This document shows, piece by piece, positions 59,561 to 62,646 of a stretch of 64,000 nucleotides of DNA (positions are counted from its first letter, which is position 1; every line of letters starts with the position of its first letter). A model generated the notes under the pieces. The model was not told the DNA's origin. It saw only the letters and a list, made by a program, of their open reading frames with translations, and searched no databases. The DNA is from Candidatus Loosdrechtia aerotolerans. GTDB lineage: Bacteria; Planctomycetota; Brocadiia; Brocadiales; Brocadiaceae. The stretch lies in NCBI GenBank assembly GCA_021646405.1, contig SOER01000001.1, forward strand, positions 124,001 to 188,000, in the 5' to 3' direction. The position numbers and the translations under genes were made by a program.

Positions 59561-60223
59561 ATGGATAATGAACTTACCATAAAAATAGCCGGAGAAGCAG
59601 GTCAGGGAATGCAGACCGTAGGAGCAACCTTATGTAAGGTGTCCAGGAGCGCCGGATTTTATCTCTTCGCCAGCCAGGATTACATGTCAAGGATACGGGG
59701 TGGTAATAATTTTTATCAGATAAGGGTCTCTGATAAACCTTTATATACCTTGCGCCAGAGTTCAGACATTATGGCAGCCCTGGATAACAATAGTGTTGGC
59801 ATCCACAGAGAAACATTGTCAAAAGGCGGTGTGATTATCCTCGATAAAAAGAGATTTAACATTACGGAAGAAAATGATATATTCTTTGATATACCCATGT
59901 ACAACATAGCAAAAGAAACGGGGGGGCGGTGAGATATTTGTCAATTCAGTTAAAAGGTCTGTCGCCAAACTTGGCAGAGATCCCAGAAATATCTTATTTG
60001 TTTCTGGCATAGATCAGGCTGCAAAATTACCCCATTATATCAGGTGCAATTGTTTTAGGGATACAGTATAAAGGTTTTGCCCTTACAGATGTGCTTCAGC
60101 CCTGCGTATCATTCAACACAAAGGACACCTTTGAAGAAAAATCAGGACTGAATAAAAGAACTCCTTTGGTCGGGGAGCCAATAGAGAATATTGATATCAG
60201 GGAAATACTACAGGATTTTGCGT
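59561..60223 (+). pseudogene. Remnant of a 2-oxoacid:ferredoxin oxidoreductase (korA/korB)
   Basis: From ATG 59561 the frame reads MDNELTIKIAGEAGQGMQTV, then GGNNFYQIRVSD, the gamma-type domain at the start of KorA. At a run of seven Gs (59922-59928) it frameshifts to TGA (59930-59932). In the next frame the sequence continues as KETGGGEIFVNSVKRS and then jumps to ILFVSGIDQAAKLPHYIRCN, a piece of the beta subunit KorB that normally lies far away. A further frame holds QYKGFALTDVLQPCVSFNTK and ends GEPIENIDIREILQDFA, the KorB C-terminus. The alpha domain and the cluster/TPP-binding parts of KorB are missing. A fused, multiply deleted relic. Confidence 0.8.
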
Positions 60224-60256: not shown

Positions 60257-61111
60257 ATGCAGAAGACAGTAAACTTTAAAGGAAAACCCCTAACCTTGGT
60301 GGGAAGGATGCTAAAACAAGAAGCAAAAGCACCAAACTTTACCACGGTATCCGATGAACTCAGGGAAATAACCCTAGATGATTTTAAAGGAAAAATCAAA
60401 ATTATCACATCATTTCTCTCCTTAGATACACCTGTTTGTGATTCACAAGTAAAAGAGTTTAATACAAGGGCTGCCCGGGCTTCTGAGGATATCGTAATTC
60501 TGGGTATTAGTAAAGACTTACCTTTTGCCCAGAAAAGGTTTTGTGAGATGAACAATATTAAAAATGCCACAATTCTGTCTGACTACAAGCATTCTTCCTT
60601 TGGTATTAATTACGGCCTCCTGATAAAAGAGCTCAATCTTTTAGCACGTTCTGTTATCATCTTAGATAAAAATAATATACTACGATACCTTCAAATCGTT
60701 GATGAGGCAACGAATCCACCAAATTATGATGATGTTTTTACTTATGTAAACGAGATAATAAAAAACCCGGAATTTACAGTAGAAGAAGCATTCCCCTCAA
60801 GCTGTAAACCCTGTGAGGGGGGTATACCGCCACTTCCAAAAGAAAGGATTGATACCTTCATAACACAGGTCGAAGATTGGGAGCTCGTTGATGGGAAAAA
60901 ACTAACAAAAGAATTTAAATACAAGGACTTTACAGAAGCAAAGTATTTTCTCGATCTCATTTCCGTTATCGCCGAGGAACAGGGACATCATCCTACAATG
61001 ACACTGATCTACAACAAATTAAAAGTGAGCCTTACTACCCATGCAGCAGGGGGATTGACAGAGAATGATTTTATCATGGCAAGGATTATTGATGAATTAG
61101 GGAAGGAGTGA
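60257..61111 (+). CDS. Thiol peroxidase fused to pterin-4a-carbinolamine dehydratase
   Basis: 284 residues. Residues 1-175 are an atypical 2-Cys peroxiredoxin of the Tpx type: GKPLTLVGRMLKQEAKAPNF, peroxidatic C61 in SLDTPVCDSQVKEF, resolving C96 in KRFCEMNNI, and a LLARSVIILDKNNILRY strand. Residues 183-284 are a complete PCD/DCoH domain: CKPCEGGIPPL, VEDWELVDGKKLTKEFKYKD, the active-site EQGHHPTMTLIYNKLKVSLT and THAAGGLTENDFIMARIIDE. There is no stop between them. Tpx reduces lipid and other hydroperoxides via thioredoxin; PCD dehydrates 4a-hydroxy-pterins. ATG 60257 has AAGGAG 7 bases upstream. A DJ-1-like gene follows after 3 bases. Confidence 0.93.
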   Translation: MQKTVNFKGKPLTLVGRMLKQEAKAPNFTTVSDELREITLDDFKGKIKIITSFLSLDTPVCDSQVKEFNTRAARASEDIVILGISKDLPFAQKRFCEMNNIKNATILSDYKHSSFGINYGLLIKELNLLARSVIILDKNNILRYLQIVDEATNPPNYDDVFTYVNEIIKNPEFTVEEAFPSSCKPCEGGIPPLPKERIDTFITQVEDWELVDGKKLTKEFKYKDFTEAKYFLDLISVIAEEQGHHPTMTLIYNKLKVSLTTHAAGGLTENDFIMARIIDELGKE

Positions 61112-61114
61112 TAA

Positions 61115-61627
61115 ATGAAAGTAGCTGTACTTATTGAGGATCATTACCAAGTTTTAGAAGTCTGGTATCCATACCTGCGGTTACGTGAAGAAGGTATTGA
61201 AACCATATTTGTTGGTACGGGCACAAAAGACTCATATCAGAGTAAAGAAGGATATCCCGCAAAAGAAGAACTTTCAATTAAAGAAGCTGATGTAAATACA
61301 TTTGACGGAGTTGTTGTCCCCGGCGGGTATGCACCGGATGTTTTACGGAGATATGAAGAAATAAATATGTTTGTGAAAAACATGTATCAAAAGAAAAAGC
61401 TCGTCGCTGCAATTTGTCACGCTGGCTGGGTCCTGGTTTCGGCAGGAATATTAAAAGGCAAAAAGGCCACGTGTTTTAGTGCCATAAAAGACGATGTCAT
61501 AAACGCGGGTGCCGAATTTATCGATAAAGAGGTTGTTGTCGATGGGAACCTGATCACCTCGCGCAATCCTTATGATTTACCTGCGTTTTGCACTCAAATT
61601 ATAAAATTTTTAAAAGAACGTACATAA
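61115..61627 (+). CDS. DJ-1/PfpI-family protein
   Basis: 170 residues. The nucleophile cysteine is in VAAICHAGWVLVSAGILKGK, with an upstream glutamate region DHYQVLEVWYPYLRLREEGI and the family's GVVVPGGYAPDVLR loop. The C-terminus TSRNPYDLPAFCTQIIKFLK resembles YhbO/PfpI members (deglycase or protease-like stress proteins). It follows the Tpx-PCD gene by 3 bases, so it is co-transcribed, suggesting a role in oxidative or carbonyl stress. Confidence 0.92.
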   Translation: MKVAVLIEDHYQVLEVWYPYLRLREEGIETIFVGTGTKDSYQSKEGYPAKEELSIKEADVNTFDGVVVPGGYAPDVLRRYEEINMFVKNMYQKKKLVAAICHAGWVLVSAGILKGKKATCFSAIKDDVINAGAEFIDKEVVVDGNLITSRNPYDLPAFCTQIIKFLKERT

Positions 61628-61781: not shown

Positions 61782-61991
61782 ATGGCAGGTTTGCTAATTG
61801 ATCTGTTGATAATTGGTTTTGTGTTCTATTTCTTCATGGAGTACAAAAAGTTTAAAAACTCCGAGCGCCTTTACCATCAAGGGATAAATACCCATAAGGA
61901 ATCAGCTATAGATACCCTAAAAAAGCGCTTTGCAAGTGGAGAGATTACCGAGCACGAATTTGACAGGGTCAAACAGAAATTACAGAGTTAG
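61782..61991 (+). CDS. SHOCT-domain small membrane protein 1
   Basis: 69 residues. One N-terminal span (LLIDLLIIGFVFYFFMEYKK) and a C-terminal SHOCT helix pair (ESAIDTLKKRFASGEITEHE, FDRVKQKL). GGAG lies 10 bases before the ATG. First of three tandem paralogs; SHOCT segments mediate oligomerisation in many small proteins. Confidence 0.8.
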   Translation: MAGLLIDLLIIGFVFYFFMEYKKFKNSERLYHQGINTHKESAIDTLKKRFASGEITEHEFDRVKQKLQS

Positions 61992-62063
61992 CTTTTCTAA
62001 AAATACCATATTTCGCATTTCAGAATATTCCTGCAATACCCCTTAGTTAAAGGAGAGATGAGC

Positions 62064-62294
62064 ATGTTTTGGTGGTACGGACCTTTTACCTGGTTGATTT
62101 TTTTTCTCGTAGTTGGTGTAGTCGTTTACTTAGTTATAAAGTATAAATTAAAGTTAACCACCAGGAATGGAAGAAGAGACTTTATAAGGGATACCGGGGA
62201 ATCAGCTTTGGAAACCCTGGAAAAACGCCTTGCGAGAGGAGAAATTACCGAGGAAGAATTTGATAGGATTAGAAAAAAATTAGATGAAACCTAA
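62064..62294 (+). CDS. SHOCT-domain small membrane protein 2
   Basis: 76 residues from the ATG at 62064; an ATG two codons earlier is too close to AAAGGAG. It begins MFWWYGPFTWLIFFLVVGVV and ends with the SHOCT motif ESALETLEKRLARGEITEEE-FDRIRKKL. The MFWW start is shared with paralog 3. Confidence 0.82.
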   Translation: MFWWYGPFTWLIFFLVVGVVVYLVIKYKLKLTTRNGRRDFIRDTGESALETLEKRLARGEITEEEFDRIRKKLDET

Positions 62295-62412
62295 TGTATG
62301 TACCAGGTTAAGTTTAAAATTTTCAAGAATGGCATGGATGATGATTTTCAAGATAAGATACCTACATATCTGTTGTTTACCAATATCCTTTAGATAATGG
62401 AAGGGGGATAGT

Positions 62413-62646
62413 ATGTTCTGGTGGTTTGACCCGTTTACCTGGTTACTGTTCTTTTTTGTACTTGGAATAGGGGTTTACCTGGTTATAAAATATGAGCTCG
62501 TTGTCACTACGAAAAGAGGTACTCAAAATAAATATATTCCGGAGACGAAAGAATCACCTCTGGAAATTCTAGAAAAACGTTTTGCACGGGGAGAAATAAC
62601 CCAGGTAGAATTCGACAGAGTCAAAAAAAAGTTAGAGGAGACATAA
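62413..62646 (+). CDS. SHOCT-domain small membrane protein 3
   Basis: 77 residues, [20 protein letters not shown] ... [28 protein letters not shown]. It is closest to paralog 2. It lies 25 bases before the aldolase gene, so a common transcript is possible. Confidence 0.82.

Follow-up and report, generated by a model that had tools for sequence, protein, structure and literature searches.

A thiol peroxidase fused to pterin-4a-carbinolamine dehydratase in anammox bacteria and Omnitrophota, with a genomic link to oxygen defence

Pterin-4a-carbinolamine dehydratase (PCD) is classically the partner of an aromatic amino acid hydroxylase, as in phenylalanine hydroxylase systems of the PhhA-PhhB type, and members of the family are also known as dimerisation cofactors (DCoH for HNF1). 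To our knowledge, the oxygen-defence operons of anaerobes are not recognised as including PCD. A role in molybdenum cofactor (Moco) metabolism has been proposed earlier (table in PMC3223725). With regard to pterin chemistry, tetrahydropterins autoxidise, releasing superoxide and H2O2, and are attacked by electrophiles at C4a-N5, and PCD converts the 4a-carbinolamine into the quinonoid dihydropterin; the enzyme can be inhibited by H2O2, and for the pterin peroxide the equilibrium in free solution is unfavourable (reviewed in PMC9737128). In this work, a protein is described in which PCD is joined to the thiol peroxidase Tpx. No paper on such a fusion was found in the mostly open-access literature searched, where the Tpx-PCD fusion is, thus, apparently undescribed.

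The fusion gene lies in a 64,000-nucleotide stretch of DNA (the window) on contig 11 of the 3.26 Mb genome of Candidatus Loosdrechtia aerotolerans, a member of the Brocadiaceae (Table 1). It starts with ATG behind an AAGGAG sequence, and both halves are full length. The first-pass annotation had read Tpx and PCD as one open frame, with C61, C96, HHP and THAAGGLTEND kept as active residues and a DJ-1/PfpI gene 3 bases downstream; all of this was borne out, the residues being found at the positions claimed and the DJ-1/PfpI start codon following closely upon the stop codon of the fusion. The DJ-1/PfpI gene is probably co-transcribed with the fusion.

Table 1. Features of the fusion locus, given in window positions
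Feature	Positions	Strand	Basis
KorA/KorB remnant (2-oxoacid:acceptor oxidoreductase)	59561..60219	+	tblastn with intact Jettenia ecosi KorA/KorB
Tpx-PCD fusion gene, 284 aa	60257..61111	+	single open frame; both domains above curated cut-offs; 37-row alignment
Tpx half, residues 1-168; C61 peroxidatic, C96 resolving	60257..60760	+	NF001808; nearest structures
PCD half, residues 181-284, including its own CxxC N-terminal tail	60797..61108	+	PF01329
DJ-1/PfpI family gene	61115..61627	+	TIGR01382, 170.4 bits (cut-off 139.05); AAGGAG before ATG

Both family assignments are supported by profile matches. Pfam places Redoxin at residues 21-160 (77 bits, cut-off 26.6) and Pterin_4a (PF01329) at residues 192-281 (93.3 bits, cut-off 26), while the NCBIfam models for thiol peroxidase (NF001808) and 4a-hydroxytetrahydrobiopterin dehydratase (NF002017) score 177.9 bits (cut-off 123) and 81.1 bits (cut-off 80), respectively; four other NCBIfam PCD models were not reached by the window protein. 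The AlphaFold2 monomer has a pLDDT of 87 and a pTM of 0.85. Its best PDB matches are all Tpx structures, including S. aureus Tpx 3p7x with 42% identity and a TM-score of 0.96 over the target.

HNF1/DCoH entries are also among the PDB matches, which favours an explanation in which the PCD half serves mainly as an oligomerisation or binding module that organises Tpx, with catalysis being incidental. However, the catalytic residues are clearly constrained: among 63 fused proteins from several phyla, in which both active sites are conserved, the HHP motif (H244, H245 and P246 in the window protein) is present in all 63, H262 in 61, and the aspartate of N270-D271 in all 63. The active-site motif reportedly given by Naponelli in 2008, [EDKH]-x3-H-[HN]-[PCS]-x5,6-[YWF]-x9-[HW]-x8,15-D, is matched in full by the window protein and by most, not all, of its fused homologues. 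Considering, in addition, that the fused copy has taken over as the only PCD of its genome (see below), a mainly structural role of this half is highly improbable.

On the Tpx side, C61 and C96 are present in 62 of the 63 fused proteins and invariant in the 37-row alignment. The exception is a homologue (locus L152, genome G562) that has lost both catalytic cysteines and retains an intact PCD half; two further homologues (L038 and L155) are broken by frameshifts. Judged by its residues, the fused protein is predicted to have both thioredoxin-dependent peroxidase and PCD dehydratase activity. Conservation of both active sites would also agree with a bodyguard function, where Tpx lowers the local peroxide concentration and keeps a peroxide-sensitive PCD active, without handling any pterin peroxide itself, and H2O2 is indeed reported to inhibit PCD (PMC9737128). 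This inhibition is, however, reported for the human pathway only, stand-alone PCDs are common, and the L152 protein retains its PCD beside a dead Tpx half, so that we regard mere protection as quite improbable. The CxxC of the linker had been considered as a new redox relay created by the fusion; this idea is weakened by the finding that most stand-alone PCDs share the CxxC N-terminal tail.

The same fusion is present in about 60 homologues, with Omnitrophota contributing nearly all of them. Homologues are, thus, not always encoded as two separate genes, as a missed stop in the window would have implied; because both domains lie in one frame in homologues from independent assemblies, chance, a missed stop and an assembly artefact are ruled out. 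Scanning GTDB with each species represented by a single genome added about 35 fusions, mostly from Omnitrophota, together with one from Parachlamydiales, one from FCPU426 and that of Candidatus Jettenia ecosi, which is the closest named relative (76% identity). The closest fusion copies are found in genomes of the same family as the window genome. In separate samples, the fusion was present in 39 of 285 Omnitrophota genomes (counting two frameshifted copies and one whose Tpx half is degenerate) and in 5 of 30 genomes of the anammox family Brocadiaceae, where it is distributed over two genera.

Genomes with the fusion have a single PCD. In each of the 35 fusion genomes reached through their loci, PF01329 gave a single match, to the fusion itself, and the fused PCD is likewise the sole PCD in the five fusion genomes from Brocadiaceae (J. 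ecosi being counted in both sets); in the 23 other PCD-bearing Brocadiaceae genomes, PCD stands alone. In the PCD tree, the fused PCDs form one clade (98) and the stand-alone Brocadiaceae PCDs a separate one (99). On the basis of these separate clades and the sole PCD, the fused protein replaces the native PCD in fusion-bearing anammox bacteria. In a tree of both halves joined, the Brocadiaceae fusions are one clade (99) adjoining Omnitrophota sequences. Probably, the fusion arose in Omnitrophota within an oxygen-defence operon and was passed, together with the neighbouring KorAB genes, to an ancestor of some Brocadiaceae, where it displaced the native PCD. The grounds for this direction are the distribution, the displacement and the shared KorAB neighbour (L020, L033), since an AU test on the Tpx half, from which the degenerate L152 sequence was left out because it distorted the topology, does not reject a placement of Brocadiaceae outside the Omnitrophota group (p 0.43).

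The Brocadiaceae copies share a module of KorA, KorB, fusion and DJ-1, followed by a class I aldolase, with SHOCT proteins in between in most cases. All five Brocadiaceae copies have DJ-1/PfpI after the fusion, and the same order is seen at 13 of the 33 other fusion loci examined. Intact KorAB is found in J. ecosi (L004) and in genomes G153 (L215), G248 (L216) and G239 (L214), preceding the fusion in the latter three loci. The window copy is composed of the KorA N-terminus and subsequent KorB pieces with frameshifts, stops and deletions; being a remnant, it was rejected as a partner with which the fusion could work in this organism. Between DJ-1 and the aldolase, at 61782-62646, the window encodes a tandem of three small membrane proteins of SHOCT-like type, two of which occur at the same place in Jettenia genomes (L215, L216). 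Neither superoxide reductase nor rubrerythrin adjoins the Brocadiaceae fusions, the neighbours there being only KorAB, DJ-1, SHOCT and aldolase genes.

The Omnitrophota fusions lie among genes of oxygen defence, often in one same-strand run with them. These runs comprise superoxide reductase, ferritin, a VIT1-like transporter, hybrid cluster protein, an Rrf2 regulator, DJ-1, flavin reductase, flavodiiron protein, a PNPOx-like protein, rubrerythrin and, near some fusion loci, thioredoxin reductase. One or more of superoxide reductase, flavodiiron protein, rubrerythrin-like protein and flavin reductase occurred at 23 of the 33 fusion loci versus 4 of the 26 Omnitrophota loci with a stand-alone PCD (Fisher p 5e-5); for Tpx relatives lacking PCD, the count was 8 of 14 loci. 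Most Omnitrophota stand-alone PCDs lie outside defence operons, and in other phyla stand-alone PCD loci have practically no such neighbours. The four stand-alone Omnitrophota PCDs that do lie beside flavin reductase, flavodiiron protein, superoxide reductase or rubrerythrin-like genes (L174, L175, L176 and L177) have no Tpx and cluster together in the PCD tree, while close Tpx relatives occupy that operon with no PCD beside them (L180, L181, L184-L187). Given these PCD-only and Tpx-only loci, each half is tied to the defence operon independently. At one Omnitrophota locus (L036, 4452-5843), a rubrerythrin-like domain precedes Tpx and PCD in a single 463-residue frame, giving a triple fusion.

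The same association is seen at the level of whole genomes. Among the 285 Omnitrophota genomes, superoxide reductase is encoded in 37 of 39 fusion genomes versus 7 of the 65 genomes with stand-alone PCD (p 1e-18; as the genomes are mutually related, the genome-level p values of 2e-4 and 1e-18 serve for description only, and they overstate independence because the fused clade has one origin). For MoaC the order is reversed, with 7 of 39 versus 36 of 65 genomes, and 36 of the 181 genomes without PCD. Stand-alone PCD, therefore, goes with Moco synthesis and fused PCD with oxygen defence. In the window genome, no match to MoaC (PF01967) was obtained; this may reflect a gap or a divergent gene, and anammox bacteria are expected to need Moco. 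The aromatic amino acid hydroxylase (PF00351) was found neither in the window genome nor in the 285 Omnitrophota genomes, a control genome being positive, and a link to this classical partner was rejected.

These counts bear on the explanation that two unrelated housekeeping activities were fused for co-expression only, with PCD having an ordinary role (e.g., in Moco or folate metabolism) and no chemical coupling between the halves. As the fused PCD is the only one in its genome, it must cover whatever PCD does there, and any general function would fall to it; the assignment of PCD to Moco metabolism (PMC3223725) and the enrichment of MoaC in stand-alone-PCD genomes would agree with such a function. 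However, the scarcity of MoaC in fusion genomes and the lacking match in the window genome make Moco a poor reason for the fusion, and PCDs without Tpx are also found within the defence operon (L174-L177). We, therefore, consider co-expression alone unlikely.

An even chance is given to the explanation that the fusion is a bifunctional enzyme against oxygen damage, in which Tpx clears peroxides and PCD restores 4a-hydroxypterins to a reducible form. The fusion itself, the catalytic residues, the replacement pattern and the genome context are read from the sequence, and the context makes a role in oxygen defence well supported; that pterin repair is its purpose, with the halves coupled through pterins, is what we infer. 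The Tpx half would reduce H2O2 and organic hydroperoxides via C61 and C96 and be recharged by thioredoxin. 4a-Hydroxy-tetrahydropterins would arise from C4a oxidation of reduced pterin or folate cofactors, and the PCD half would dehydrate them to quinonoid dihydropterins, which could be re-reduced, so that one chain would combine peroxide removal with repair of the peroxide-damaged cofactor. Tpx may reduce a 4a-hydroperoxypterin directly to the PCD substrate or merely shield PCD from peroxide.

The chemical link to oxidised pterins had been raised in the first-pass annotation. Oxidation at C4a under oxygen fits the defence-gene context in Omnitrophota and the co-occurrence with superoxide reductase; the hand-over of a 4a-hydroperoxypterin, although possible, is the weakest step of the mechanism, because of the unfavourable equilibrium given in the same review (PMC9737128). 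Accordingly, the further-reaching proposal that PCD serves the oxygen defence of anaerobes as a dedicated module for cofactor repair, with a 4a-hydroperoxy or 4a-hydroxy pterin passed between the halves, is tentative and somewhat doubtful. Counting against the bifunctional enzyme are this equilibrium, the position of the Brocadiaceae fusion away from superoxide reductase and rubrerythrin, the L152 protein and the majority of Omnitrophota stand-alone PCDs outside defence operons. On balance, the evidence suggests pterin repair as a part of oxygen survival in anaerobes.

A peroxidase fusion that occurs in several phyla and within oxygen-defence operons provides a concrete, testable proposal for PCD in hydroxylase-less bacteria, namely that repair of oxidised reduced-pterin cofactors contributes to oxygen tolerance. 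If true, cofactor repair would join peroxide and superoxide scavenging in anaerobes, including the anammox bacteria of wastewater treatment, and PCD would gain a physiological role that depends neither on aromatic hydroxylases nor on Moco.

In comparison with known systems, the fusion shares the whole domain of thiol peroxidase Tpx, an atypical 2-Cys peroxiredoxin (NF001808), with both cysteines, to which it adds the C-terminal PCD, and in Omnitrophota it is placed near superoxide reductase and flavodiiron genes. With the PCD/PhhB/DCoH family (COG2154, PF01329), it has the full domain, the catalytic motif and the CxxC tail of stand-alone bacterial PCDs in common; in contrast to these, its PCD is fused behind a peroxidase, no aromatic amino acid hydroxylase partner was found in the genomes searched, and its genomic link is to oxygen defence rather than to Moco. 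Finally, the gene kinds that constitute anaerobe oxygen-defence operons, i.e., superoxide reductase, rubrerythrin and flavodiiron protein, are the same as those flanking the Omnitrophota fusion.
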